Shown here in pieces: positions 3,859 to 35,120 of a stretch of 64,000 nt of DNA. The notes under the pieces were generated by a model. It searched no databases and was not told the DNA's origin. It saw only the letters and a list, made by a program, of their open reading frames with translations. The translations under genes were made by a program, and so were the position numbers. Positions within the stretch are counted from its first letter, which is position 1. The number at the start of each line of letters is the position of its first letter. The stretch lies in contig NZ_CP010310.2 in assembly GCF_000815105.2 (NCBI RefSeq), positions 1,798,001 through 1,862,000 of the forward strand, read 5' to 3'. This DNA is from Pandoraea pulmonicola (GTDB taxonomy: Bacteria > Pseudomonadota > Gammaproteobacteria > Burkholderiales > Burkholderiaceae).

Positions 3859-3871
3859 GTATACAGAATAC
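3859..3871. promoter_or_regulatory. GTATAC-palindrome operator, site A (amidase/MFS unit)
   Basis: GTATACAGAATAC, 18 bp before the amidase ATG. It is one of five copies of a 13-bp palindrome (ideal form GTATAC-N-GTATAC) found in this island. The site lies where the -10 region would be, so binding would repress. The GntR/FCD protein encoded at 14198-14872 is the likely binder (inference). Confidence 0.7.
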
Positions 3872-3889
3872 TGAAACGAGTTTTCCATC

Positions 3890-5395
3890 ATGATGAATCC
3901 CACAGTCGAGCCGCTCGACGACGGTGTCATATCAGGTCGGGCAACCGGGGCGGTGCCATGGCATTACGCCACGCTGACAGCAGTCCAGGAGGCGCTGCGG
4001 CGGCGTGAGGTCACTTCCGAAGCCCTCGTGGCAGCGTGCGAGGGTGCATGGCGCAAGGCGAATCCGCGGCTCAATGCGGTCGTGGTAAGCGATTTCGACA
4101 GCGCCTACGCGCTCGCGCGCAAGCGCGACGCCGAGTTGCGCGCCGGACTCGTCCGAGGCCCCTTGCACGGCGTGCCGTTCACCATCAAGGAGTCGTTCGA
4201 CGTCAAGGGCTGGCCCACCACCGTGGGCGATCCGGCGTTCACCGGCAATATCGCGGCGCGGCATGCGGGCGTGGTGCAACGGCTGACCGACGCGGGGGCG
4301 ATCTTGCTGGGCAAGACCAACGTGCCGATCTGGCTGCGCGACTGGCAAAGCTACAACGACGTCTACGGCACGACGCGCAATCCTCACGACATGCACCGCA
4401 CGCCGGGCGGTTCGTCGGGCGGCAGCGCTGCCGCCGTCTGTACGGGCATGGCGTTCTTCGACGTCGGATCGGACATCGGTTCCTCGATCCGCAATCCAGC
4501 GCACTACTGCGGCATCTTTTCGCACAAGAGCACGCACGGTCTGGTGCCGCTCGACGGCCACGGACTTCCCGGTGGCATGACGTTTCCCGATATCAACGTG
4601 GCCGGACCGCTGGCCCGCAGCGCGGCCGATCTCGAGGTGGTGCTTGCCGCGATCGCCGGGCCGTCCGCCGAGGCCGCATGCGCCGTGCGCTTCGAACTGC
4701 CGCGCTTTCATGCCACCGATCTGCGCCAGATCCGCTTCGGCATTCTGCCCAATCACCCGGTTGCCGACGTCGACGCCGAGGTGGAGCAATGCCTCGTGAA
4801 TCTCGGCAAGGACCTCGAACGGCGCGGCGCGCAGGTGCTCTGGAACGCCCACCCGTCGCTCGACGCTACCGAACTCATGCGCGTCTATACGCTGATGCTG
4901 CGCGCGTCGACCTGCGGGTATCTCGGCGACGACGCTTTCGAGGCTGCCGTCGCGGCCGCCGCGCAGGCGCCCTCGGACGACGTCCGTTACGCATCGCTCC
5001 AGTACGTGGGGGCCGCGATGCGCCACCGCGACTGGCTCAGGCTGCAGCCGTTGCGTGAGCGTTTTGCCGCGGCGTGGCGCGAGTTGTTCGAATGCGTGGA
5101 CGTGCTGCTGTGCCCGGTGGCCGCCACACCGGCGTTCCCCTTGAACGAGGAGGGGGCGCCCTGGCAGCGCACGCTGGAGGTCAACGGCTGCGCACAGCCG
5201 CTCACCACACAGCTTTTCTGGGCCGGACATTCCGGCTTGTGCGGCCTGCCCTCGACCGTGGCCCCCGCGGGGCGTACGGCTCGGGGGCTGCCCGTCGGCG
5301 TGCAGATCGTGGCTCCGCTGTATCACGACCTGCGCTCGATTCATGTAGCCAGATTGCTGGAAGCCGCCGGCTACGCCTTCGTACCACCCGCCTGA
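3890..5395 (+). CDS. Amidase-signature family amidase
   Basis: 501-aa cytoplasmic amidohydrolase of the amidase-signature family, which hydrolyses carboxamides to carboxylate and ammonia. The full Ser-cisSer-Lys triad is visible: Lys100 in PFTIKESFD, cis-Ser175 in GGSSGGSAAA and nucleophile Ser199 in GSDIGSSIRNPA. Length is normal for the family. The start is the ATG at 3890; a second ATG three bases later is equally possible and the ribosome site is weak. It is the first gene of a unit with the MFS permease 80 bp downstream and has operator site A in its promoter. The context (ammonia-releasing enzyme, OCD-family protein, Amt channel at the end of the island) suggests release of nitrogen from an imported amide. 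Substrate unknown. Confidence 0.92.
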   Translation: MMNPTVEPLDDGVISGRATGAVPWHYATLTAVQEALRRREVTSEALVAACEGAWRKANPRLNAVVVSDFDSAYALARKRDAELRAGLVRGPLHGVPFTIKESFDVKGWPTTVGDPAFTGNIAARHAGVVQRLTDAGAILLGKTNVPIWLRDWQSYNDVYGTTRNPHDMHRTPGGSSGGSAAAVCTGMAFFDVGSDIGSSIRNPAHYCGIFSHKSTHGLVPLDGHGLPGGMTFPDINVAGPLARSAADLEVVLAAIAGPSAEAACAVRFELPRFHATDLRQIRFGILPNHPVADVDAEVEQCLVNLGKDLERRGAQVLWNAHPSLDATELMRVYTLMLRASTCGYLGDDAFEAAVAAAAQAPSDDVRYASLQYVGAAMRHRDWLRLQPLRERFAAAWRELFECVDVLLCPVAATPAFPLNEEGAPWQRTLEVNGCAQPLTTQLFWAGHSGLCGLPSTVAPAGRTARGLPVGVQIVAPLYHDLRSIHVARLLEAAGYAFVPPA

Positions 5396-5475
5396 TCCTT
5401 CGAACCACCGAAACCCCAAGCGTCGACAACCTCATCGATCCCACAAAACCCACGACCTCCAAGGAGGACGCCGCC

Positions 5476-6825
5476 ATGTCCTGGCTAAATTCGCTATCGA
5501 GAAACGAGAAGCGTGCCTTTGCGGGCACGTTCATCGGCCATACGGTCGATGTCTACGATTTCATGATCTATTCCTTTCTCATTCCGGTGCTGCTCACCAC
5601 CTGGAACATGAGCAAGGCCACCGCGGGCAGCATCGTCACGTACACGCTGATCGCTTCCCTTGTCGGCGCGATCGGCGCGGGCCTGCTCGCCGACCGTTAC
5701 GGCCGCGTGCGCATCCTGCGCTGGACCATCGCCATCTTCGCGCTGGCGTGCTTCGGCTGCGGTCTGACCAACTCTCCCACGCAACTCGCCGTGCTGCGCA
5801 TCGTGCAGGGCCTCGGCTTTGGCGGGGAGTCGTCGCTGTGCATGGTGCTGGTCATGGAGACGATCCGCAATCCGGCCCATCGAGGCAAATTCTCCGGCTT
5901 TACGGCCAGCAGCTATTCGTTCGGCTGGGCGCTGGCGGCCATCGCATATAGCGCGATCTTCAACTGGCTGCCGTCCGAGATCGCCTGGCGCGTGTGCCTG
6001 TTCATCGGTGTGGCGCCGGCGTTGATGGTGTTCTGGCTGCGCCGCAATCTCGAAGAGCCGGAAGCCTTTACCCGCACGATGGCGGAGCGCCGTCAGACCA
6101 GCCCGCTCACGACGATTCGTGGTGTGTTCAGCGGACGCCTTGCCGCTCGCACCCTGTGGTGCAGCCTGCTGTCGGGAGGCATGCTCGGCTCGTACTACGC
6201 GATCGCGACCTGGATGCCGACGTGGCTCAAGACGGAGCGGGGCCTGTCGGTGACGGGAACGGGCATGTGGCTCGCGATCACGATCGTGGGCTCGATCGTC
6301 GGTTACGCGGCAGGAGCGTGGTGTACCGACAGGCTCGGCCGTCGTCCGACCTACATCCTGTTCGCGCTCGGCGCATTCGCCATGAGCATTGCCTACATGC
6401 TGATTGCGGCGCCGATACCCGTGATGATGGTGCTGGGCTTCCTGATGGGCGTGCTGATGCAGGGAACGTTCGCGGGCGTGGCGGCAACGATTTCGGAGAC
6501 GTATCCGCACGAAGTTCGCGCCACCGGTTATGGCGTTGCCTATAACGCGGGACGCGTCATCGGCTCGATCTTCCCGTTCATGGCGGGCTGGCTTGCCAGC
6601 GGTCACACCACGCTCACCTTCGCCATTCCGATCGTCGCCGCCGTCGGTTATGGTCTCGTGGTCGTTGCGGCGCTGATGCTGCCCGAGACGAACGGTATCA
6701 AGCTGGACGCGATCGATCCCGTGAATGCCGATACCCGCGCTGACGCCGACGCTTCGCGTACCGTGCATCCGGTCCACGGCACTCATGGCACAGTGACCAA
6801 CGCCGTTGGCCGCGCCGTCGACTGA
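5476..6825 (+). CDS. MFS transporter, aromatic-acid/H+ symporter type
   Basis: 449-aa inner-membrane major facilitator with 12 predicted helices. Family motifs are present: GLLADRYGRVRIL in the loop between helices 2 and 3, RIVQGLGFGGE in helix 4, and TDRLGRRPTYIL in the second half. The ATG at 5476 follows a strong AAGGAGG. The N-terminus (NEKRAFAGTFIGHTVDVYDFMIYS) resembles small organic-acid symporters, and the acidic residues in helix 1 fit proton coupling. It is co-transcribed with the amidase and probably imports that enzyme's substrate or a precursor. The last 40 residues are a hydrophilic tail rich in Asp, Ala, Thr and His. Confidence 0.92.
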   Translation: MSWLNSLSRNEKRAFAGTFIGHTVDVYDFMIYSFLIPVLLTTWNMSKATAGSIVTYTLIASLVGAIGAGLLADRYGRVRILRWTIAIFALACFGCGLTNSPTQLAVLRIVQGLGFGGESSLCMVLVMETIRNPAHRGKFSGFTASSYSFGWALAAIAYSAIFNWLPSEIAWRVCLFIGVAPALMVFWLRRNLEEPEAFTRTMAERRQTSPLTTIRGVFSGRLAARTLWCSLLSGGMLGSYYAIATWMPTWLKTERGLSVTGTGMWLAITIVGSIVGYAAGAWCTDRLGRRPTYILFALGAFAMSIAYMLIAAPIPVMMVLGFLMGVLMQGTFAGVAATISETYPHEVRATGYGVAYNAGRVIGSIFPFMAGWLASGHTTLTFAIPIVAAVGYGLVVVAALMLPETNGIKLDAIDPVNADTRADADASRTVHPVHGTHGTVTNAVGRAVD

Positions 6826-6893
6826 GCTTTCCTTCTCTCTCTGTATCCCTGCACCTCTTTACCGCGGCACGTCCCGCACCGGAATTTGTTGTA

Positions 6894-6927
6894 TTGGCAT
6901 TTTTGGTAAAACTGTATACAGTGTACC
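6894..6927 (+). promoter_or_regulatory. Promoter with GTATAC operator, site B (di-iron oxidase operon)
   Basis: TTGGCA (6894-6899), a 16-bp spacer, then TATACA (6916-6921) form a plausible sigma-70 promoter. The operator GTATACAGTGTAC (6915-6927) covers the -10 box, flanked by CT and CA, giving CTGTATACAGTGTACCA. This is the best-centred of the five operator copies. It lies 78 bp before the ATG at 7006. Confidence 0.72.
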
Positions 6928-7005
6928 AAAATGATAAATCGAACCCGCTTTGTACCGGCTTGCCGGGGCGGAGCGGGTCAACCACCTGAAACCAAGGAGC
7001 AAGAC

Positions 7006-7737
7006 ATGGCTGAACTGATGGACCGCGAAACCTTCCGCGCGGCACTCGAAGAAGCAATCAAGGGCAAGAGCGCGAACAAGGCGCCGTTCAGTATCGCGTG
7101 GGCCAGCGGCAAGCTCTCGCGGGCGCACCTGGCGCGCTGGGCGGAGAACCACTACCACTATGTGGGCCCGTTCGCCGATTACCTCGGCTACCTGTACGCC
7201 CGCACGCCCGACCACATGACCGAGGCGAAGGACTTCCTGCTGGCGAACATGTACGAAGAGGAGATCGGCGGCGATCGCCACACCGATCTGCTGATCCGTT
7301 TCGCCGAGGCGTGCGGTACGACCCGCGAGCGCGTCGTCGACCCGGACAACATGTCGCCGACCACGCGCGGCCTGCAGAGCTGGTGCTATGCCGTGGCGAT
7401 GCGCGAAGACCCGGTGGTGGCCGTGGCCGGCCTGGTCGTCGGTCTGGAGTCGCAGGTGCCGTCGATCTACCGCAAGCAGACTCCCACGCTGCGCGACAAG
7501 TACAAGTTCACCGACGAGGAAGTCGAGTTCTTCGATCTGCATATCGTCTCTGACGAGATTCACGGTGAGCGCGGCTATCAGATCGTGCTGGAGAACGCCA
7601 ACACCGTGGAGCTTCAGCAGCGTTGCCTGAAAATCTGTGAGATCGGCGCGCAAATGCGTCTGCTCTACACGACGGCGCTCTATTACGACTACGTCGAGAG
7701 CGAAGTGCCGCTGCCCGAACTGGGACTTGCCGCCTGA
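7006..7737 (+). CDS. Haem-oxygenase-like di-iron oxidase (TenA/PqqC/CADD superfamily)
   Basis: 243-aa all-helical protein of the TenA/THI-4/PqqC fold. ATG at 7006 with AAGGAG upstream. It carries a six-residue metal set in the spacing known for the di-iron enzyme CADD: Glu85-x6-His92 (EEIGGDRH), Glu148 (GLESQVP) and His179-x3-Asp183-x2-His186 (LHIVSDEIHG). TenA thiaminases and PqqC lack this exact set, so it is likely a haem-oxygenase-like di-iron oxidase or oxygenase (HDO) that activates O2. Relatives of this fold oxidise amino acids, fatty acids and N-containing substrates; the substrate here is unknown. It is the first gene of an operon with an aldehyde dehydrogenase, a GlcG/HbpS protein and a reductase that could supply electrons. 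Fold and metal set are read from the sequence; activity is inference. Confidence 0.82.
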   Translation: MAELMDRETFRAALEEAIKGKSANKAPFSIAWASGKLSRAHLARWAENHYHYVGPFADYLGYLYARTPDHMTEAKDFLLANMYEEEIGGDRHTDLLIRFAEACGTTRERVVDPDNMSPTTRGLQSWCYAVAMREDPVVAVAGLVVGLESQVPSIYRKQTPTLRDKYKFTDEEVEFFDLHIVSDEIHGERGYQIVLENANTVELQQRCLKICEIGAQMRLLYTTALYYDYVESEVPLPELGLAA

Positions 7738-7830
7738 GCAGGCTCCGCCTCCCCGCGCCGCCAACCGTCCTGTCTTCCGGGCGACACACGGCGGCGCGGT
7801 CCTGAAGACGCTTTGCAGGACGCTGTTGTC

Positions 7831-9285
7831 ATGACATCCGCTCCCACATTTCTGAACTACATCGACGGCGAATGGTGCGCGAGTCGCTCGGGCGCCACCT
7901 TCGCGAATCTGAACCCGGCCGACACGCGCGACGTCGTGGGCCACTTCCAGGCGTCCAGCGAGGTGGATGCACAGGCCGCCGTGCGCGCCGCCGCATCGGC
8001 ATTCGACGCCTGGAAGCGCCTGTCGACGAGCGCTCGCGCCAGATTCCTCATCGATGCGGCGACCTATCTCGAACGCAACGCCGAGCGTTTCGGCGAAGAG
8101 CTCACGCGCGAGGAGGGCAAGCCGAAGGCCCTCGCGAAAGACGAGTTCATGCGCGCGGCGCAAACGCTGCGCTACTACGCCGTCGAGGCGCAGTCGTACG
8201 GCGGGGAGACGTTTCCCAATGACGACGCCGATATGACGGTGTATACCGTCCGCGAGCCGCTGGGGGTGGTCACGGTGATCTCGCCGTGGAATTTTCCCGT
8301 GTCGATCCCGGCGCGCAAGATCGCGCCGGCCCTCGTCTGCGGCAACACGGTGGTGTTCAAGCCGGCGTCCGACGCGCCACTGAGCGGGCTGCGTCTGGCG
8401 GAGGCGTTCGTCGAGGCAGGCATTCCCGCGGGCGTACTCAACTTTGTGACGGGCAGCGCATCGGCCGTCGGCCCGACACTGGTCGGCGCACGCGAAGTGC
8501 GCGCCATCTCCTTTACCGGATCGACGACGGCGGGCGAGCAGATTCACCGTGCCGCGTCGATGTCGACTCGCACGCAGATGGAGCTCGGCGGCAAGAATCC
8601 GCTGATCGTGCTCGACGCGCGGGACATCGACCGCGCTGTCGATCTGACGATCAAGGGCGGCTTCTCGCTCACCGGTCAGGCGTGTACCGGCACCAGCCGG
8701 GTCCTGGTGGCGCGCGATATCCGCGCCACATTCGTCGAGCGGCTGGCCGCGAAGACCGCGACGCTCAAGGTCGGCAGCGGCATGCAGCCCGGCATCGATA
8801 TCGGCCCGTTGGCAAACGCGGGGCAGTTGCGCACGGTGCTCGACTACATCGAGATCGGCAAACGCGAAGCCACGCTGGTATGCGGCGGCGAGCAACTCAC
8901 GCATGACGCTTACGCGCACGGCTACTTCGTCACGCCGGCGGTCTTTTCGCAGGTACCACGTGATGCCCGTATCGCACGCGAGGAAATTTTCGGCCCGGTC
9001 ATCGCCGTGATCGACGTGGACGGCTACGAGGACGCGATCGCCGTTGCGAACGACAGCGACTATGGACTCGCCGCCGCGCTCGTCACGCAGGATCCGCGAC
9101 TCATGCACCGTTTCGCGAACGATATCGAAGTCGGCACCGTCAAGATCAACCGCACGACCACCGGCAATCTCGTGAACGCGCCGTTCGGCGGCATCAAGCA
9201 GTCGAGCACGGCCACATTCCGCGAGTCCGGGCGCGACGGCCTCGAGTTCTATCAGCAGATCAAGACGGTCTATCGCGGTGTTTGA
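7831..9285 (+). CDS. NAD(P)-dependent aldehyde dehydrogenase (semialdehyde type)
   Basis: 484-aa aldehyde dehydrogenase. Catalytic residues are in place: Asn154 (SPWNFPVS), Lys177 (FKPAS), Glu251 (ELGGKNP) and nucleophile Cys285 (GQACTGTSR); the coenzyme-binding FTGSTTAGE motif is at 228-236. The ATG at 7831 follows AGGA at a 10-base distance; an upstream TTG at 7813 is less likely. The closest recognisable relatives are succinate-semialdehyde and alpha-ketoglutarate-semialdehyde dehydrogenases. It is second in the di-iron oxidase operon, so it probably oxidises an aldehyde or semialdehyde formed downstream of the oxidase to a carboxylic acid that enters central metabolism. Confidence 0.92.
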   Translation: MTSAPTFLNYIDGEWCASRSGATFANLNPADTRDVVGHFQASSEVDAQAAVRAAASAFDAWKRLSTSARARFLIDAATYLERNAERFGEELTREEGKPKALAKDEFMRAAQTLRYYAVEAQSYGGETFPNDDADMTVYTVREPLGVVTVISPWNFPVSIPARKIAPALVCGNTVVFKPASDAPLSGLRLAEAFVEAGIPAGVLNFVTGSASAVGPTLVGAREVRAISFTGSTTAGEQIHRAASMSTRTQMELGGKNPLIVLDARDIDRAVDLTIKGGFSLTGQACTGTSRVLVARDIRATFVERLAAKTATLKVGSGMQPGIDIGPLANAGQLRTVLDYIEIGKREATLVCGGEQLTHDAYAHGYFVTPAVFSQVPRDARIAREEIFGPVIAVIDVDGYEDAIAVANDSDYGLAAALVTQDPRLMHRFANDIEVGTVKINRTTTGNLVNAPFGGIKQSSTATFRESGRDGLEFYQQIKTVYRGV

Positions 9286-9345
9286 CGCCCGCGCATCTTC
9301 CGTTCCCGATATTCCAGATATCTCCGACACCTCACCGGATCAGTC

Positions 9346-9825
9346 ATGAAACCCTTCTTCAAACTTGAACTTGCCGAAGCCCGTCACATGATCGCGGCGG
9401 CGATTGCGCGTTCGCGGGAAATCGGCGTCCTCGAGTCGATTTGCGTGGTCGACGAGGGCGGCTTCCCGCTCGCGCTCGAACGCATGGACGGTGGCCGCAT
9501 CACCGGCCCGCAGATCGCCTGGAACAAGGCGTTCACGGCGGCGGGACACAAGCGCTCGACGCACTTGTTCACCACGCCTCCCAACGGTCCCGCGCTGCCC
9601 GGCAACGAAGCTTTCGGTATCCAGTGGAGCTTCGAGGGGCGCTTCGCGGCGTTCGTCGGCGGCTTCCCCATCGTGGTCGACAAGCAGGTCGTCGGCGGCA
9701 TCGGTTTGTCGGGTGGCAATGGCGAGCAGGATACGCAGGCGGGTCTGGCGGGTCTGGCCGCGTTGCAGGCGCTGTTGCGCGAGAGCGGACGCGAAGTCCT
9801 CGTCCAGCCCGACATCAAGCTTTGA
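9346..9825 (+). CDS. GlcG/HbpS family protein (DUF336)
   Basis: 159-aa protein of the GlcG/HbpS (DUF336, PduO C-terminal-like) family. Typical blocks are the N-terminal LELAEARHMIAAAIARSREIG, VVDEGGFPLALERMDG, AWNKAFTAAGHKRST, and the Gly-rich GGFPIVVDKQVVGGIGLSGGN. Members bind haem or other ligands or act as accessory proteins in catabolic operons; few have a known reaction. It is encoded between the aldehyde dehydrogenase and the reductase, 60 bp and 13 bp away, so it belongs to the operon. It has no signal peptide and is probably cytoplasmic. It could be a ligand-binding or cofactor-handling helper for the di-iron oxidase (inference). Confidence 0.85.
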   Translation: MKPFFKLELAEARHMIAAAIARSREIGVLESICVVDEGGFPLALERMDGGRITGPQIAWNKAFTAAGHKRSTHLFTTPPNGPALPGNEAFGIQWSFEGRFAAFVGGFPIVVDKQVVGGIGLSGGNGEQDTQAGLAGLAALQALLRESGREVLVQPDIKL

Positions 9826-9838
9826 TGCGAGGCCGCCG

Positions 9839-10873
9839 GTGAGCTATCGAATCACATGGATCGAGGCCCAGCGAAGCTTCGACGCAACGCCCGACGAAAC
9901 CGTGCTCGAGGCCGCGCGGCGGGCGGGGGTCGTACTGCCGTCCGAGTGTGAGTTCGGCGGCTGTGGGACGTGCCGCGTCAAGCTCACGCAGGGGCGCGTG
10001 CGGTACGAGGACATGCCGGGCGCGCTCTCGCGCGAGGAGGCCGACGCGGGCTACGCACTGCTGTGTCAGGCGCATGCGTGCTCCGATCTCGCGATCAGTA
10101 CGGAGCGCGTGCTCGAATCGCCCGGGCCGGCACGTCGGCGTCTGGCGACGGTGGCTCGCTTGGCATCGCTTGCGCCGGACGTGACCCGGCTCGTGCTGGC
10201 CATCGACGACGGCGATCCGTGGGTCTTCCGTCCCGGGCAGTACCTCAATGTTTTCCCCGGCGGCGATTTGGGGCCGCGCAGCTTCTCGATGGCGTCTCAT
10301 CCCGACGCCGCCGACGGGCGTCCCGAAGTGGAGCTCCATATCCGTCATATCGAGGGAGGGCGCTTCACGCAGACGCGCCTGAGCCAGCTGCGTCCCGGCG
10401 ACAAACTCGAGGTGGAAGCCCCGTTGGGTGGATTCGGTTATCACGAAGACGACTACCGGCCGATCGTCATGGTCGCCACCGGCACGGGCATCGCACCATT
10501 GCGCAGCATGCTGGCGCAGATGCTGGCAAGCGGCGATACACCGCCGATCGATCTGTACTGGGGCGGTCGCACGCAGGCGGCGCTGTATCTGCACGGCGAG
10601 CTGACGCAGCTTGCCGCCGAGCACGAGGATTTCCGCTACGTGCCGGTGCTTTCGCGTGCGGATGACGACTGGCAGGGCGCACGCGGTTACGTGCAGGGTG
10701 TCGTGCTGTCCGAGCATCCCGATCTTTCCGAGCATGCGGTGTACCTGTGCGGCTCGCCGATGATGATCGCGGACGCGCAGCGGGCCTTCGTCGCGAATGG
10801 CGCCAGCGTGCGCTATGTGTATGCCGACAGCTTCACGTTCCAGCATCCGGCGCCCGTGGAGGCCGCAGCCTGA
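9839..10873 (+). CDS. [2Fe-2S] ferredoxin-FAD-NAD(P)H oxidoreductase (oxygenase reductase)
   Basis: 344-aa reductase. An N-terminal plant-type ferredoxin domain (about 1-92) has cluster ligands Cys37, Cys42, Cys45 and Cys76 (CEFGGCGTC and LLCQAHA). A ferredoxin-NADP-reductase-type FAD domain follows (FRPGQYLNVF, then PRSFSMAS as the RxYS-like flavin motif), and then an NAD(P) domain (GTGIAPLRSM, YLCGSPMMI). The start is a GTG at 9839, preceded by GCGAGG; no ATG fits this frame. The domain order matches reductases of phenol hydroxylases and related multicomponent oxygenases. Encoded last in the di-iron oxidase operon, it probably passes electrons from NAD(P)H to that oxidase, directly or through the two ferredoxins at 12124-13079. 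Confidence 0.9.
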   Translation: MSYRITWIEAQRSFDATPDETVLEAARRAGVVLPSECEFGGCGTCRVKLTQGRVRYEDMPGALSREEADAGYALLCQAHACSDLAISTERVLESPGPARRRLATVARLASLAPDVTRLVLAIDDGDPWVFRPGQYLNVFPGGDLGPRSFSMASHPDAADGRPEVELHIRHIEGGRFTQTRLSQLRPGDKLEVEAPLGGFGYHEDDYRPIVMVATGTGIAPLRSMLAQMLASGDTPPIDLYWGGRTQAALYLHGELTQLAAEHEDFRYVPVLSRADDDWQGARGYVQGVVLSEHPDLSEHAVYLCGSPMMIADAQRAFVANGASVRYVYADSFTFQHPAPVEAAA

Positions 10874-10882
10874 GCGTCATGC

Positions 10883-10921
10883 AAAAAGCGGGGGAATGGC
10901 GCTTGCGCCGCTCACCCCCGC
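10883..10921 (-). terminator. Rho-independent terminator for the leftward OCD-family gene
   Basis: Read leftward: GCGGGGG, an inner hairpin GGCGC..GCGCC, CCCCCGC, then five U residues (the A tract at 10883-10887). It lies 44 bp past the stop of the gene at 10965. Lying between convergent genes, it may also slow readthrough from the reductase gene. Confidence 0.8.
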
Positions 10922-10964
10922 CCGTCGCCCATCCGCCCCTGTCTATCGGAAGCGCTTCGACGTA

Positions 10965-11894
10965 TCACGCGCCGCGCTCGATGAACGTCCGGTAAGCCAG
11001 CGCGGCGAGTGCCACGTCCTGCAGACCGAATCCGACCGCCTTGTAGACGATGATCTCGTCGTCGCGTTGCCGGCCCGGCGTCAGGCCTTCGAGCACGTCG
11101 CCCAATTCCTCGACTTGGTCCCAGTCGACGAGCCCCGGCGCGGCCAGCAGCAAATCGCCGGCTTCTTCGCGGGCCTGCTCGCGCAACTCCACGACGACGC
11201 GCGCCGCACGGGCGAGGGTGCTGTCGTCCGTCTCGCGCGTGGTCGGCAGGCTCGAACCGATAGCGGCGACGAAAGCGCCCGACGACAGGGCGCGGCCATC
11301 GAAGAGCGGCGTCGTCGAGCGTGTTGCGGTGACGACGATATCGGCGCCATCGAGCGCCTCGTCGGTTTGCATGGCGCTGGCCGTCACGCCTTGCGCGCCG
11401 TAAGTCTCGTTGAGCGCTGCGGCGAGGGCGGCATCGCCGTCGATACCGACAATCCGCAGCGTTTCGACGCCCCGCATTTGCGCGAGCGCGTGGGCGTGAG
11501 CCGCTCCCTGGACGCCGGTGCCGAAGACCGCCGCCGTGCGTGCGCCGCGCCGGGCCAGCGCCCGTACGGCGAGCATCGTCGTCGCGGCCGTGCGCACGCG
11601 AGTGATGGCATTCGCGTCGAGTGTGGCAAGGCAAGCGCCGTCGGACGCGCGGAACAGCACGATCACGAAGTTGAACTGACCTCGAATGGTGGAGTAGACC
11701 TTCGCACCCGCGACGTCCGCGCCGGGGAGCACGGCGCCGAGGGTCGAGAGCTTCGTGCCTTGTGCTTCGGTACGTATACGACGTTGCACTGCGGCGCTAC
11801 CGCGTGCGAGTTCGCGAAATGCGCTCTCGAGCGTGGGAATGGCTTGCGGGACGTCAATCAGCTTGTCGATTTGTGCGTCGGTGAGATGAATCAT
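10965..11894 (-). CDS. Ornithine cyclodeaminase/mu-crystallin family protein
   Basis: 309-aa NAD(P)-dependent protein of the ornithine cyclodeaminase/mu-crystallin family. The Rossmann motif FGTGVQGAAHAHAL has its Gly core at residues 125-130. Upstream are KLSTLGAVLPG and GAKVYSTIRGQFNFVIVLF, which form the substrate half, and LDANAITRVRTAATTML. Members include cyclodeaminases, ketimine (cyclic imine) reductases, alanine dehydrogenases and ectoine-degradation EutC, so the exact reaction cannot be named. The ATG at 11894 is chosen because the longer frame runs through operator site C. It is the only leftward gene of the island and is transcribed divergently from the ferredoxin unit. A role in removing or reducing an imine formed in the pathway is likely (inference). 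Confidence 0.9.
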   Translation of the reverse strand: MIHLTDAQIDKLIDVPQAIPTLESAFRELARGSAAVQRRIRTEAQGTKLSTLGAVLPGADVAGAKVYSTIRGQFNFVIVLFRASDGACLATLDANAITRVRTAATTMLAVRALARRGARTAAVFGTGVQGAAHAHALAQMRGVETLRIVGIDGDAALAAALNETYGAQGVTASAMQTDEALDGADIVVTATRSTTPLFDGRALSSGAFVAAIGSSLPTTRETDDSTLARAARVVVELREQAREEAGDLLLAAPGLVDWDQVEELGDVLEGLTPGRQRDDEIIVYKAVGFGLQDVALAALAYRTFIERGA

Positions 11895-11923
11895 CGGTCG
11901 CGTTTTGTATAGATTGAAAATGG

Positions 11924-11936
11924 GTATACGGTATAC
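11924..11936. promoter_or_regulatory. GTATAC-palindrome operator, site C (OCD-family gene)
   Basis: GTATACGGTATAC, the copy with two perfect GTATAC half-sites. It lies 29 bp upstream of the leftward ATG at 11894 and about 100 bp from site D, which serves the divergent gene. The two sites could act jointly on the divergent promoter region. Confidence 0.72.
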
Positions 11937-12023
11937 GAACAAAAGCCATCTCACAAATAGTTCGAGGCCGAGGGGCCAGTGAAAAGCCTGAGTTTCGAGG
12001 TCGAGACGCCACAGAGCGGTCCG

Positions 12024-12052
12024 TTGGAATTTATTTCGGTATACAGTATCCA
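12024..12052 (+). promoter_or_regulatory. Promoter with GTATAC operator, site D (ferredoxin unit)
   Basis: TTGGAA (12024-12029), a 17-bp spacer and TATCCA (12047-12052) form a candidate sigma-70 promoter. The operator GTATACAGTATCC (12039-12051) covers the spacer end and the -10 box. The ferredoxin ATG is about 70 bp downstream at 12124. Confidence 0.68.
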
Positions 12053-12123
12053 TTAACGCGTTACACTGTCGCAAAAACCGCCGCCGTACGCCAAGGGGCG
12101 GGGTCTCGGTGAAAGGAGGAGGT

Positions 12124-12435
12124 ATGCCAGTCGTTGTATTTCGCAGGAACGGTCAGACGTACCGGGAAGAGGTGAAGGCCAGGACCAACCTGGTCGTCCG
12201 TGCGGGCATCAAGCAGTTTCCATTCCCCCATTTGCGCTACGAATGCGGCATGGGCAAGTGTTCGCGTTGCGCGTGTCGCGTGCTGGCCGGCGGCGAACAT
12301 CTTCCGGCGCCGAACTGGAAAGAGAAGAAGCAACTGGGCGAGCGGCTCGATGCGGGTTTCCGGCTGGCTTGTCAGCTCTGGATCGAGCACGACATCGAAC
12401 TGGAGCAGGGCGACGAATTGCCGGTGGCGCCTTGA
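12124..12435 (+). CDS. [2Fe-2S] ferredoxin
   Basis: 103-aa plant-type ferredoxin with all four cluster ligands: Cys41, Cys46, Cys49 (CGMGKCSRC) and Cys83 (RLACQLW). The ATG at 12124 follows a very strong AAGGAGGAGG. The protein is a soluble electron carrier and has no targeting signal. It heads a three-gene rightward unit (this ferredoxin, the ferredoxin fusion, the alpha/beta hydrolase) under operator site D. In context it probably carries electrons from the reductase at 9839-10873 to the di-iron oxidase. Why two ferredoxins are present is unclear; one might serve a reductase interface and the other the oxidase. Confidence 0.9.
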   Translation: MPVVVFRRNGQTYREEVKARTNLVVRAGIKQFPFPHLRYECGMGKCSRCACRVLAGGEHLPAPNWKEKKQLGERLDAGFRLACQLWIEHDIELEQGDELPVAP

Positions 12436-12485
12436 GCGCAGGGCACTGTCGCGCATCGTCAGGCTACCCGCAACGAGGAAAGCGA

Positions 12486-13079
12486 ATGTACATCGTACTT
12501 ACGAGCCGCCCGGGCCAGTATCGCAGCGAACCCACGCCCGGCATCACACCGATCGAGACCCACGACTACTTCTACGGCACGCGCCACGTCGCGGCGTTCG
12601 TGGTGGCAAAGCTGGACGCGCAAGCGCGCGTGCGCATCGTCGACGAATCCGTGCCGGACGAGGCGAATCTCGTGCCCACCAAATTTTTCGAGAAGTTCGA
12701 CAGCGTGTCGGAGGCGGTGGCGTCGCTCGAGTCGCTCGTTGGCCGCGAACATGCGCTGGCGCGACTTCGCCGCCGCAATCCGGAGACATCGGTCAACACC
12801 ATGGTGCAAATCACGTTCATCACGAATGGCGGCAAAGTCGTCGAGGCGCCGCCCAACAGCAATCTGCTGCGCGTGTCGTTGCGCGAGAAGGGGGGGATTC
12901 CGTTCAAATGCGGCGGCGGTCTGTGCGGTACCTGTCGGTGCCGTGTGGAACAGGGCCGTGAGCATACCGACGAGGTCAAGCAAAAGGAGCGCAGGCACCT
13001 GAGCCCCGACGACCTCGCCAACGGCTATCGCATGGCCTGCCAGACCTTCGTCAACGGCAATGTGAGCGTGTCATGGTGA
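12486..13079 (+). CDS. Unknown domain fused to a C-terminal [2Fe-2S] ferredoxin
   Basis: 197-aa two-domain protein. Residues 1-105 (MYIVLTSRPGQYRSE to PETSVNT) match nothing I recognise; they contain THDYFYG and a region that looks like an alpha/beta fold with a helical end. Residues 106-197 are a ferredoxin with ligands Cys142, Cys147, Cys150 (CGGGLCGTC) and Cys185 (RMACQTF). The ATG at 12486 has GAGGAAA upstream. An in-frame ATG at 12801, exactly at the ferredoxin boundary, could give a second, ferredoxin-only product. The gene follows the first ferredoxin by 50 bp and overlaps the next gene by 7 bp, so it is translationally coupled. The N-terminal domain may dock the oxidase or bind the substrate (inference). 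Confidence 0.8.
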   Translation: MYIVLTSRPGQYRSEPTPGITPIETHDYFYGTRHVAAFVVAKLDAQARVRIVDESVPDEANLVPTKFFEKFDSVSEAVASLESLVGREHALARLRRRNPETSVNTMVQITFITNGGKVVEAPPNSNLLRVSLREKGGIPFKCGGGLCGTCRCRVEQGREHTDEVKQKERRHLSPDDLANGYRMACQTFVNGNVSVSW

Positions 13080-14023
13080 GCGGCCCGGACGTGACGACCG
13101 AGCCGTTCTCGGCCTTGCCGATCGAGCAGCGTCGGCTGATGCTCGAACTGGGGCCGCGCTGGAACGATGACATCATCGCGCACCGCAAGGCGGTGATCGA
13201 GTGCTACACGCCAGTGCTGGCGGCGGCGCCGAGGAGTCCGCACGTCGAGCGCGACGTGCCCTACGGCGAGCATGCGCGTCAGGTCCTCGATGTCTTTGAA
13301 CCGGTCGCGCCTTCGACGGACCTGCGCGAAGCCGTCCTGTTCGTCCATGGCGGTGCGTTCGTACGCGGCAACAAGAGCGTCAACGGTGAGATTTACGACA
13401 ACGTATGCCACTGGTTCGCGCGACAGGGCATGTTGGCGATCAACGTCGAATACCGTCTGGCCGACGAGGCGCGGTGGCCCGGCGGCGCGCAGGATGTCGC
13501 GCGGGCCATCGCCTGGGTGCACGAGAACGCTTCGCGCCTGCGTATCGACACGTCGCGCATCTTCCTCATCGGACACTCGGCCGGGGGCACGCACGCGGCC
13601 GGTTGTCTGTTCGATCCGGCGCTGACGGAAGCGTCCTCCTTGCCGGCTGGAGGTGTGGCTGGCCTGGTGCTGATCAGTGCGCGGTTGTTCGCGGATGTCG
13701 ATGCGCGCAACCCGAACGCGGGGCCCGTGCGGGCGTATTTCGGCGGCGATGAATCGCGCTATGCGCAGCGCTCGCCGCTCACGCACGGTGCGTGCTGCGC
13801 GGTGCCGACGATGATCGCCGTCGCGGAATACGAAAACCGGTTCCTCGACGACTACGGCGCGGCGTTTTTCCAAACACTCCTGCGCGCACGCGGTGCGGCG
13901 CCCCGGTTCGTCCAGGTGCGCGGCCACAATCACACGTCGATCGTGGCGCACTTCAATTCCGGTGAGGAGTGGCTGGGGCGGGAAATACTGGCGTTCATGG
14001 CGTCGGCATGTCGTCCTGCCTGA
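13073..14023 (+). CDS. Alpha/beta hydrolase, HSL/formamidase-like
   Basis: 316-aa alpha/beta hydrolase. The oxyanion-hole motif HGGAF is at residues 92-96, the nucleophile is Ser169 in GHSAGG, and a C-terminal His lies in RGHNHTS. This arrangement fits the hormone-sensitive-lipase and arylformamidase branch, which cleaves esters or N-formyl amides. The start overlaps the stop of the ferredoxin fusion (ATGGTGA), implying translational coupling. Encoded with the oxidase electron carriers, it probably hydrolyses an ester, lactone or formamide made after ring or chain oxidation. A formamidase role would fit the other nitrogen enzymes, but the sequence alone cannot separate esterase from formamidase. 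Confidence 0.87.
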   Translation: MVSGPDVTTEPFSALPIEQRRLMLELGPRWNDDIIAHRKAVIECYTPVLAAAPRSPHVERDVPYGEHARQVLDVFEPVAPSTDLREAVLFVHGGAFVRGNKSVNGEIYDNVCHWFARQGMLAINVEYRLADEARWPGGAQDVARAIAWVHENASRLRIDTSRIFLIGHSAGGTHAAGCLFDPALTEASSLPAGGVAGLVLISARLFADVDARNPNAGPVRAYFGGDESRYAQRSPLTHGACCAVPTMIAVAEYENRFLDDYGAAFFQTLLRARGAAPRFVQVRGHNHTSIVAHFNSGEEWLGREILAFMASACRPA

Positions 14024-14081
14024 GAGCGGACATCTACGCCGCGTCCCGGGCAATACTTGCCGGCGGAGTGCCTCCCTGATC

Positions 14082-14116
14082 GTGTACAGTCTACAAAAAG
14101 CCGTTGCTGCTATAAA
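14082..14116 (+). promoter_or_regulatory. GTATAC-type operator, site E, upstream of the GntR gene
   Basis: GTGTACAGTCTAC (14082-14094), the most degenerate of the five copies, then a -10-like TATAAA at 14111-14116 with the operator where the -35 box should be. This suggests that the regulator controls its own gene. Confidence 0.6.
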
Positions 14117-14197
14117 ATGCGTCGGTTATTGGGGACCATGGGCCACGGCAGCAGGCGTCCGTGGGCGCGGAACCGTCGGTTTGTGGAGATTGGAATT

Positions 14198-14872
14198 ATG
14201 GTACGGGGAGCCACAGGGGCAAACGGTCGCGAGCCGATCATGCACCAGCAGCTTTCGGATCTGGTGACTGCCCGTTTGCGCGAGTCCATCACCTCGGGGA
14301 CTTACAAGCCGGGCGACCGCCTCGTCGAAGGACGGATCGCTCAGGAACTGGAGGTGTCGCGCGTGCCGGTGCGCGAGGCGTTGCGGGCGCTGGCCGTCGA
14401 GGGGTTGGTGGAAGTGAGGCCCCGGCACGGTGCGGTCGTGGCGTCGTTCGATCCGGCGTCGGCGCGTGAACTGGTACAGATCCGCGCCACGCTCGAGGGA
14501 CTGAACGCCCGCCTGGCGGCGGAACATTGCACGCCGGAGTTGGTCAAGCGCATCGAAAAGGTTCTGCAGGAGGGCAACGCCAAGGTCGCCGCGGGAGAGA
14601 CGTCGGGCCTCCTGGAACTCAATGCCCGTTTCCACGACTTGTTGTATTCCGCGGGCGCGAACGCGATGCTCGCGGACCTGATGCGTTCCATGCGCGACCG
14701 TTCGCGCATGCTGTTCGTCAACGCCAGCGACGAAGAGGTACGCATCACCTGGGAAGAGCACGCCGCCATTCTGCGCGCAGTGCAGTCCGGCGATGCGGCG
14801 TTTGCCGCACTTCTCGCCGAACGCCACGTCACTCGCGCCGCGCAGTACTACCTGGATAACCTCGCCCGCTGA
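14198..14872 (+). CDS. GntR-family regulator with FCD domain
   Basis: 224-aa FadR-subfamily GntR repressor. The winged HTH (about 17-85) includes LVTARLRESITSGTYKPGDRLVEG and SRVPVREALRALAVEGLVEVRPRHG. The C-terminal FCD domain keeps the metal-site histidines His146 (LNARFHDLL), His188 (WEEHAAIL) and His210 (AERHVTRAA); the usual Asp four residues before the first His is Asn142 here. The ATG at 14198 has GGAG upstream, while the longer open frame runs back over operator site E and is unlikely. It is the only regulator gene inside the island and GntR/FCD proteins commonly bind short palindromes with GT..AC ends, so it is the probable reader of the five GTATAC sites. Confidence 0.92.
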   Translation: MVRGATGANGREPIMHQQLSDLVTARLRESITSGTYKPGDRLVEGRIAQELEVSRVPVREALRALAVEGLVEVRPRHGAVVASFDPASARELVQIRATLEGLNARLAAEHCTPELVKRIEKVLQEGNAKVAAGETSGLLELNARFHDLLYSAGANAMLADLMRSMRDRSRMLFVNASDEEVRITWEEHAAILRAVQSGDAAFAALLAERHVTRAAQYYLDNLAR

Positions 14873-17069: not shown

Positions 17070-17801
17070 ATGGCCACCAAGCCCAAGACCCTGACCGAAC
17101 AGGTCGCGCAGCAATTGCAGGACGCGATTCGGCAGGGCGTTTATCCCGTCGGCACCCGGTTGCCGACCGGCAAGCAGCTTTCCGAGACCTATGGCGTAAG
17201 TCCCGCGGTGATCCGTGAGGTCACGGAGCGCTTGCGCGCGCAGGGGCTTATCGACAGCCGGCAAGGTGCGGGCGTGACGGTCAAGGCGCGTACGCCGTCG
17301 AGCGGCTTCCAGGTCCCCGTGGGGCAGGACGCCGCCGATCTCGCGAGCGTCTACGAGTTGCGTCTCGACCTGGAGAGTACGGCCGCCGCGCTCGCCGCCG
17401 TGCGTCATACCGAGGAGGACATTCGTCGGCTCGGCGACATTCTCGAAAAGCTCGAAACGAACCTGTATCACGTGGAAAACGGCGCGGAGTACGACACGGC
17501 GTTCCATGCCGCCATCGCCCGCGCCACGCACAACCGCTACTACGCCGATCTGCTGCAGTATCTGAATCTGCAGATCCGCCAGGTCGTCCACACCGCGCGC
17601 ACGAACACGCTGCTCCACGAAGGGCTTGCCGCGCAGGTGCATCAGGAGCACGTGGCCGTGTTCAATGCGATCAAGGCGCGCGACCCATTGCTCGCACGCG
17701 CCGCGTCGCTCTCGCACCTGCTGCGCGCCTCGGCTCGTCTCGGTCTGACGCTGCCCGGTCGAGACGTCATCACCGGCGCCATCGCGCCGACCCGGCCCTG
17801 A
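17070..17801 (+). CDS. GntR-family regulator with FCD domain
   Basis: 243-aa FadR-subfamily regulator. The HTH (about 8-72) includes LTEQVAQQLQDAIRQGVYPVG and SPAVIREVTERLRAQGLIDSR. The FCD domain has a full metal set: Asp142, His146 (YDTAFHAAIA), His194 (HQEHVAVF) and His216 (SLSHLL). The ATG at 17070 follows GAGAGG. It heads the cluster of 2-hydroxyacid dehydrogenase, hydrolase, MFS, ETF and oxidase genes (17850-24604) and is 48 bp from the first of them, so it is the likely local regulator. FCD ligands are often organic acids, which fits a hydroxyacid inducer. Confidence 0.92.
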   Translation: MATKPKTLTEQVAQQLQDAIRQGVYPVGTRLPTGKQLSETYGVSPAVIREVTERLRAQGLIDSRQGAGVTVKARTPSSGFQVPVGQDAADLASVYELRLDLESTAAALAAVRHTEEDIRRLGDILEKLETNLYHVENGAEYDTAFHAAIARATHNRYYADLLQYLNLQIRQVVHTARTNTLLHEGLAAQVHQEHVAVFNAIKARDPLLARAASLSHLLRASARLGLTLPGRDVITGAIAPTRP

Positions 17802-33986: not shown

Positions 33987-35120
33987 ATGGATTTCTATAC
34001 GGAAGACCAGCGCATGATTCGCGATATGGCGCGCGCGTTCGCCACCGAACAACTTGCGCCGAACGCTGCCCAGTGGGATCGCGACTGCGCCCTGCCCGAC
34101 GCCATGGTCGCGCAGATGGGCGAGTTGGGACTGCTCGGCATGATGGTGCCGGAAGAGTTCGGCGGCTCGTATACCGACTACACGGCCTACGCGCTGGCGA
34201 TGGAGGAGATCGCGGCGGGCTGCGCGTCCACGGCCACGATGATGTCCGTGCACAACTCGGTCGGCTGCGCGCCGATCCTGAAATTCGGTACGCAGGCCCA
34301 GCGCGAGCGCTGGCTGCCCGATCTGGCAGCGGGCCGAAAGATCGGCGCCTTCTGTCTGACCGAGCCGCAAGCCGGCTCCGAAGCGAACAACCTGCGCACG
34401 CGCGCGGAGCGCCGCGGCGACAAGTGGGTGCTCAACGGCAGCAAGCAGTTCGTGACGAACGGCAAGCGGGCGGCGGTCGCCATCGTGTTTGCCGTCACGG
34501 ATCCGGCGGCGGGCAAGCGCGGCATCTCCGCATTCATCGTCCCGACGGACACCAAGGGGTTCGAAGTGGGGCACCCCGAGCACAAGCTGGGTATTCGCGC
34601 GTCGGACACCTGTCCGATCACGCTGGTCGATTGCGAGGTGGGCGACGACGCTCTGCTTGGCGAACCGGGGCAGGGGCTCAAGATCGCCTTGTCCAACCTG
34701 GAAGGTGGACGTATCGGCATCGCGGCCCTGGCGCTCGGCGTGGCGCGCGCGGCATTCGAGGCGGCGCTGCGCTATTCGAGCGAACGCCAGCAATTCGGCA
34801 AGCCGATTCGGGAGCATCAGAGCATTGCGAACATGTTGGCCGACATGAGCACACGCATCAACGCGGCACGCTTTCTGATCCTGCACGCGGCGGCGCTTCG
34901 CACGCAGGGCTTGCCGTGTTTGTCGGAGGCGTCGCAGGCGAAGCTCTTTGCGTCGGAACTGGCCGAATGGGTCTGCTCGCACGCCATCCAGATCCACGGT
35001 GGCTACGGCTATCTCGAAGACTATCCGGTCGAGCGACATTATCGCGACGCGCGCATCACGCAGATCTACGAGGGTACCAGCGAGATTCAGCGTCAGGTCA
35101 TCGCACGCGCGTTGGAGTGA
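33987..35120 (+). CDS. Acyl-CoA dehydrogenase, isobutyryl/short-branched-chain type
   Basis: 377-aa flavoprotein of normal family length. It shows [19 protein letters not shown] (FAD site), the C-terminal [24 protein letters not shown], and the catalytic base Glu362 in YEGTSEIQ. The start [19 protein letters not shown] at 33987 follows GGAG. Sequence flavour and neighbours (an HSD10-like SDR and a 3-hydroxyisobutyryl-CoA hydrolase-like protein) favour isobutyryl-CoA or 2-methylbutyryl-CoA as substrate. Electrons would go to ETF, encoded 11 kb away in this window. Confidence 0.92.

Follow-up and report, generated by a model that had tools for sequence, protein, structure and literature searches.

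A predicted GntR/FCD regulon with two-box GTATAC operators at a gene island encoding a heme-oxygenase-like diiron oxidase

Control of a catabolic gene cluster by a linked regulator with an FCD domain is a well-known arrangement, and repression that is relieved by a ligand from the pathway is common for such regulators. Atu1419 of Agrobacterium fabrum, a VanR-type FCD member of the GntR family, is described as the repressor of hydroxycinnamate degradation; it binds ATGTATACAT, where Arg45 contacts a G whose change abolishes binding, and its proposed effector is methylenetetrahydrofolate (PMC7797058). Proteins of the FadR subfamily are described as usually reading GT-N2/3-AC, and the tandem operators of the NanR type as direct repeats of TGGTATAW (PMC4494728). 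Here we analyse a stretch of 64,000 nucleotides of the Pandoraea pulmonicola genome (contig NZ_CP010310.2, a single contig of 5,867,621 bases, positions 1798001–1862000), hereafter the window, in which five copies of a 13-base-pair (bp) motif, ideally GTATAC-N-GTATAC, lie across a gene island that encodes a heme-oxygenase-like diiron oxidase (HDO) and a GntR/FCD protein. The sequence data make it very probable that the five sites are operators, each of two boxes, of one local and autoregulated regulon under this GntR/FCD protein, probably as repressor.

A preliminary description of this DNA had reported the five copies, each upstream of a different transcription unit, with none before other operons of the window. 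All five are present. Scanning the window with the consensus GTRTACRGWNYMC gives these five matches and no others, all on the + strand, at 3859, 6914, 11924, 12039 and 14082; the placement before the units headed by the genes for the amidase, the oxidase, an ornithine cyclodeaminase/mu-crystallin family protein (OCD), a ferredoxin and the GntR protein was right, and only site B had been put one base too far, at 6915. Site A (GTATACAGAATAC, 3859–3871, +) lies before the amidase–MFS unit and ends 19 bp ahead of the ATG at 3890. Site B (GTATACAGTGTAC, 6914–6926, +) precedes the oxidase operon and overlaps a −10-like hexamer. Site C (GTATACGGTATAC, 11924–11936, no strand assigned), a perfect palindrome, sits some 30 bp ahead of the ATG of the OCD gene, and site D (GTATACAGTATCC, 12039–12051, +) lies before the ferredoxin–hydrolase unit. 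Site E (GTGTACAGTCTAC, 14082–14094, +) precedes gntR and overlaps a −35-like hexamer at 14090–14095. Mismatches to GTATAC-N-GTATAC number 1, 1, 0, 1 and 2 at sites A, B, C, D and E, respectively.

At two mismatches or fewer, GTATACNGTATAC matches six times in the window, compared with a mean of 0.15 and a largest count of 2 in 100 dinucleotide shuffles; the sixth match, at 34169, falls within listed open reading frames. When all 4,096 hexamers were scored in the 10.6-kb island as words of the form H-N-rc(H) (rc, reverse complement), GTATAC came first at one mismatch or fewer, with four matches against three for the runners-up. The whole genome, scanned with the reversed pattern as control, holds six places at this threshold, four of them in the island, and the reversed pattern has two. 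Matches in unrelated promoters, many of which would speak against a local regulon, thus amount to two places outside the island: 1873670, before an fdsG-like gene, and 2397279, with an integrase-like gene on one side and a dus-like gene on the other (names read from translations). Both of these sequences also occur in Pandoraea genomes without HDO.

HDO is present in 60 of 299 genomes of the family, and up to 20 kb around it was taken once from each. The resulting 60 loci total 1.17 Mb and comprise the window's own and 59 from other genomes, five being shorter than 20 kb. They hold 122 matches at one mismatch or fewer and 277 at two or fewer, whereas 179 other arrangements of the same letters gave at most 19 (median 0) and at most 104 (median 9). 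Inside mapped island genes, a class that leaves out the permease and other unmapped genes, there is 1 of the 277 matches. The flanks of the sites form 137 groups of 41-mers below 75% identity, a divergence which argues that the sites do not derive from recent copying. Pandoraea and Cupriavidus differ in gene order, as do the Paraburkholderia types among themselves, and the sites follow the genes: the putative operators recur before hdo, the amidase gene, gntR, the genes for ferredoxin 1 (fd1) and OCD (ocd), and a divergent permease/TauE pair. Within the 450 bp ahead of hdo, a site is present in all 17 Pandoraea loci, all six Paraburkholderia loci, the one Caballeronia locus and 31 of 35 Cupriavidus loci; the amidase gene has one before it in 17 of 17 Pandoraea loci and all 20 Cupriavidus loci in which that gene was mapped. 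Among the 17 Pandoraea loci, ocd is found in seven, always with an upstream site, and fd1 has one in 14; every one of the 16 with a mapped gntR has a site before it, so the computed local target set includes the regulator's own gene.

The footprint of the motif extends across two classes. It was followed in 79 named loci, from 80 of 494 relatives that were kept; several of these loci come from genomes already among the 60, and only the Achromobacter and Rhizobiales loci of this set entered the site counts per gene. A site precedes hdo in every Achromobacter locus (25) and every Rhizobiales locus (five, of which four are from Bradyrhizobium and one from a Rhizobiales metagenome-assembled genome), and in all five of the latter a further site stands before a divergent permease gene. 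The GntR proteins of these loci are 47–51% identical to that of the window. Own upstream sites are less frequent for some genes: fd1 (0/35), ocd (15/35) and gntR (3/34) in Cupriavidus, ocd (3/5) in Paraburkholderia, fd1 (0/25), gntR (5/25) and the permease gene (9/24) in Achromobacter, and fd1 and gntR (0/5 each) in the Rhizobiales loci. In the gene maps many of them appear to follow another gene of the cluster, where a site of their own would not be expected. The permease-like protein, of 512–550 residues (for example L062:12649–14187, +; L058:13713–15365, +; L077:7665–9212, −), is encoded in 35 of 35 Cupriavidus, 6 of 7 Paraburkholderia/Caballeronia and 0 of 17 Pandoraea loci, and also in Achromobacter and Bradyrhizobium; it has no match in Pfam (E ≤ 1e-4) or NCBIfam (E ≤ 1e-10).

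The presence of the sites goes together with that of the GntR gene. Family scans found no other regulator gene in the island, in agreement with the preliminary description, and of three regulator genes used as queries this one alone recurs at 45% identity or more, in 56 of the 60 loci. HDO and GntR occur together in 58 of the 299 genomes and HDO alone in two (G251, where the contig ends, and G229); the 239 remaining genomes contain a single GntR match (G295, 51% identity). In two of the 58 genomes (G264 and G290) the match is on a different contig from HDO. Pandoraea genomes with HDO (17) have 3–8 motif matches each at one mismatch or fewer, versus 0–4 in the 15 without it (rank test 1.6e-6, kinship ignored), and the HDO-negative maximum of four belongs to G010, a genome of 1.2 Mb. 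None of these 15 has a GntR match at the cut-off. In nine HDO-less genomes all matches are ATATACGGTATAC (the type before the fdsG-like gene, hereafter fds type) or GTATACCCTATAC, with G010 and G101 (two matches) outside this count. L100 (G229), an intact stretch, encodes HDO and a ferredoxin and has neither a GntR match nor a site. The claim that the motif marks out a regulon finds strong support in this pattern: the sites are kept across genera and classes despite rearrangement, are fewer where HDO is missing, and are absent from L100.

Several results weigh against this reading. At two mismatches or fewer, GTATAC is just 49th of the 4,096 hexamers in the island, where GC-rich words come out on top, and the genome as a whole is not enriched, with 37 places to the reversed control's 40. 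A genome-wide extension of the regulon at this threshold was rejected on that comparison, which also leaves weaker members unpredictable and gives site E, with its two mismatches, no support from statistics alone; site E is accepted because its 13-mer is conserved, with identical copies ahead of gntR in 18 of 60 loci. The genomes are related to each other, and the counts are therefore not independent events. At two mismatches or fewer, fd1 lacks a site in three of the 17 Pandoraea loci (L054, L055 and L103) and hdo lacks one in four of the 35 Cupriavidus loci; two of these four have a three-mismatch site. The environmental laboratory strains Cupriavidus pinatubonensis HN-2 (L160) and C. metallidurans CH34 (L212) have the cluster together with sites and gntR, and in CH34 the hdo promoter shows a three-mismatch site only (L089). 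Four of the 60 loci are without a mapped gntR: L065 and L104, which are short contigs, L100, which has no site, and L085 (G290), an unexplained exception that has sites and whose sole GntR match, 51% identical, is on another contig. In the named set gntR is unmapped in 6 of 79 loci, four of them short contigs, and L145 and L179 (P. xenovorans LB400) carry sites with no gntR within the examined stretch. Finally, the base-touching Thr46 of Atu1419 is replaced by Val, Ile or Asn in the GntR sequences shown.

The low rank of GTATAC at the looser threshold, together with the conspicuousness of any AT-rich palindrome in a window of 65.5% GC, could suggest chance similarity or mobile repeats spread over the island. 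The shuffles, the composition-matched permutations in the 60 loci, the diverged flanks and the conservation into Achromobacter and Bradyrhizobium argue so strongly in the other direction that we consider this explanation hardly credible.

Loci such as L085, L145 and L179, which have sites and no gntR in the stretch examined, would also be expected if the sites were operators of a different regulator encoded elsewhere, for instance the FCD-GntR beside the formate-dehydrogenase genes. A similar site, ATATACGGTATAC, is found at 1873670–1873682 (L005:1501–1513), about 11.7 kb past the end of the window, ahead of the fdsG-like gene for a formate dehydrogenase and with a further FCD-GntR-like gene nearby, and at least one other protein of the cell may therefore recognise a related sequence. 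However, ATATACGGTATAC occurs in Pandoraea genomes with and without HDO, whereas sites of the island type go with HDO and GntR. The fds-linked protein is 27% identical to the island GntR over residues 27–197 and has a different recognition helix, and the other GntR of the window (17070–17801) is 24% identical to it; control by another regulator is accordingly judged improbable. The hexamers by ATATACGGTATAC repeat in a 7-bp register (GATATAT GATATAC GGTATAC), and the site is possibly a sister operator, belonging to a formate-dehydrogenase regulator.

In the local regulon that we favour, the GntR/FCD protein (14240–14872, +; start uncertain, with 14198 as an in-frame alternative) is the predicted binder of all five sites and would contact two GTATAC hexamers one base apart. 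Without effector it would probably block RNA polymerase at the amidase–MFS, oxidase, OCD, ferredoxin–hydrolase and gntR promoters; it would let go when a small molecule, probably one formed from the substrate of the pathway, occupies its FCD domain. Given binding, repression with release by a ligand is likely. A −10 box had been proposed under sites B and D; the overlap holds at B (TTGGCA-17-TACAGT, 6894–6922), but a consensus scan found none at D, and site E instead covers a −35-like hexamer (TCTACA-17-TAAAAT, 14090–14118; same scan). The overlaps at B and E are two of three promoter-like matches in the island scan, and they are suggestive only, because shuffles average 1.5. The same GntR could act at the same sites as an activator, or activate some promoters and repress others, and the variable distance from site to start codon (19 to 146 bp) and the weakness of the promoter-like hexamers are compatible with this. 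Overlap of the sites with such hexamers at B and E fits repression, as does the fact that Atu1419, the closest model that we found with a known operator, is described as a repressor (PMC7797058); a role in activation is thus unlikely.

The consensus GTRTACRGWNYMC, although it matches the five sites, proved too narrow for the wider data. The symmetrised logo, biased by the selection of its sites at two mismatches or fewer, reads K-GTATAC-W-GTATAC-M with weakly A/T flanks. Where a site has two mismatches, both changes fall within one hexamer in 40 of 45 distinct 13-mers and the other box is perfect; site E of gntR is an exception in that its mismatches are not confined to one hexamer. This proportion does not separate one dimer over 13 bp from two dimers, because both models use the same hexamer. 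A third box was sought in 130 flank-distinct sites centred on a perfect GTATAC, with boxes scored at every offset. None is kept: offsets −7 and +14 score means of 1.82 and 1.78 of 6, most others about 1.25–1.9, while +9 reaches 2.25 through overlap with the partner box and the high score of the partner at +7 results from how the sites were selected. A longer array of boxes is unsupported, as offsets −7 and +14 barely exceed most others. The GT-N2/3-AC reading of FadR-subfamily proteins would make a single dimer spanning GT-N9-AC less likely than a pair of neighbouring dimers or a dimer assisted by a helper box. The two-box operator poses a testable question on how FCD regulators pack on DNA.

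Both domains of the regulator, a GntR winged helix-turn-helix at the N terminus (PF00392, 1.1e-19) and an FCD domain at the C terminus (PF07729, 4.8e-24), score above cut-off. The protein aligns over most of its length with entry 6z74, which we take to be Atu1419; a glutamate, the arginine of an SR pair and a later arginine, to which PMC7797058 gives a role in DNA contact, are common to both, and in the effector domain an N-x3-H motif and two further histidines line up. In an alignment of 89 GntR sequences, taken as the best match per locus after a length filter and removal of duplicates, with weaker matches retained, the stretch VSRxPVREAL is conserved at 90% or more. Two loci show other arrangements. 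L084 (G190) has, within one cluster, a tandem pair of gntR genes that share 56% and 53% identity with that of the window. L214 has two overlapping weak two-box sites (7574–7593) by a GntR relative (L214:7630–8244, −; 51% identical); no island gene save this one was detected nearby, and the arrangement may point to another regulon run by this family of regulators.

The island encodes what looks like a gene set for uptake and oxidation. The first unit comprises an amidase (3890–5395, +; NCBIfam PRK06170 family, above cut-off) and an MFS transporter resembling aromatic-acid/H+ symporters (5476–6825, +; below the cut-off of that family). The oxidase operon begins with HDO (7006–7737, +), a Haem_oxygenas_2/PqqC-like protein distantly related to CADD, whose start codon was chosen by reference to relatives and an upstream AAGGAG. 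It continues with an aldehyde dehydrogenase (7831–9285, +, from a chosen in-frame ATG), for which the best models, 2,5-dioxovalerate and alpha-ketoglutaric semialdehyde dehydrogenase, score below cut-off, an HbpS-like protein (9346–9825, +; profile match) and a BenC/MmoC-like [2Fe-2S]-FAD-NAD reductase (9839–10873, +; below family cut-offs). The OCD-family enzyme is encoded on the − strand (10965–11894), with its start placed at an ATG read in the sequence. The Rhizobiales metagenome-assembled genome has an aspartate-dehydrogenase-like gene between the ferredoxins and gntR (L203:11823–12620), possibly in place of the OCD-family gene. Ferredoxin 1 (12124–12435, +) is a [2Fe-2S] protein by domain match. 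Ferredoxin 2 (12486–13079, +) consists of a [2Fe-2S] domain preceded by some 100 N-terminal residues that match nothing in Pfam; this N-terminal part (MYIVLTSRPGQY...), fused to the ferredoxin in Pandoraea, is encoded by a separate adjacent gene in L058 and in Caballeronia SBC1. An esterase-like alpha/beta hydrolase (13073–14023, +; Abhydrolase_3/BD-FAE) completes that unit. Across the 60 loci, fd1 was mapped in all 60, and the genes for the reductase, the aldehyde dehydrogenase and the HbpS-like protein in 58 each.

HDO belongs to its superfamily by profile (PF14518, 1.4e-36), by alignment with a solved 4-aminobenzoate synthase, and by a candidate six-ligand dimetal set. E92, H99, E155, H186, D190 and H193 (numbered from the codon at 6985) are invariant in ten aligned sequences, namely the window protein and nine of 120 listed relatives (1,361 found), and their spacing is what we take to be that of the dimetal set of the heme-oxygenase-like family. 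The nine relatives, from several genera, are 85–92% identical to the window protein. By sequence, the closest solved relatives are 4-aminobenzoate synthases, CT610 and PqqC proteins; with 94 bits against a cut-off of 200, HDO scores below the curated threshold of the CADD/para-aminobenzoate synthase model TIGR04305.

In the proposed explanation, the controlled genes would form an uptake and oxidation pathway in which the two ferredoxins and the BenC-like reductase feed HDO. Tentatively, and with slightly less than even confidence, we suggest that this is a degradation pathway not described before, with an HDO-type diiron oxygenase as its key enzyme that receives electrons from two dedicated ferredoxins and a BenC-like reductase, under a two-box operator (two adjacent dimers, or one across 13 bp), and that beta- and alphaproteobacteria have either retained the whole unit of regulator, operator and pathway or exchanged it. 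In searches of the literature, of HDO relatives and of neighbouring genes in other genera, none of the papers listed linked the cluster to a substrate, and those listed for homarine (10 of 568) gave that idea no support. A hint that a small anion is exported or imported comes from TauE/SafE-like genes, present in one Cupriavidus locus and one Achromobacter locus. The pathway merits attention because published accounts place the characterised HDO enzymes in biosynthesis (PMC13108848, PMC13232832); the abstract of a 2026 review of these enzymes is concerned with natural product biosynthesis, and the word 'ferredoxin' is absent from its main text (PMC13108848). If the suggestion is correct, and as far as PMC13108848 and PMC13232832 show, the superfamily would gain a new setting, that of an HDO in catabolism served by an electron-transfer chain of its own. 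The regulon marks candidate pathway genes by sequence alone, including rearranged or added partners such as the permease, a porin and the TauE/SafE-like gene, and derepression by deletion of gntR would offer a simple handle on the pathway substrate.

Searches of the literature for GTATACNGTATAC, four spelled-out versions of it and ATACNGTAT, which did not cover RegPrecise and subscription papers, returned only unrelated studies of barley and Epstein-Barr virus. The closest known systems are those introduced at the outset. Like Atu1419 as described in PMC7797058, the island has a GntR/FCD protein, local control of a putative degradation region and an operator core of GTATAC, and residues of the Glu34, Arg45 and Arg49 type align in its GntR. 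Binding of ATGTATACAT by Atu1419 and its dependence on the G make that protein a reasonable guide to how one GTATAC box may be recognised. Unlike there, Thr46 is not kept, and in place of the single 10-bp ATGTATACAT there are two GTATAC boxes one base apart, whose inner flanks are W-G rather than A-T, so the sites do not fit ATGTATACAT as a VanR-type operator. With NanR the system shares a regulator of the FadR subfamily and more than one GTATA-containing box per operator; the boxes here are palindromic, two in number with a period of 7 bp and no third one kept, and the island sites are not the direct repeats of TGGTATAW described for NanR (PMC4494728). They do conform to the GT-Nx-AC pattern of the FadR subfamily, GTATAC being GT-N2-AC with K preferred before it in the logo (consensus from PMC4494728), and differ from operators with a single GT-N2-AC box in having two such boxes in fixed register.

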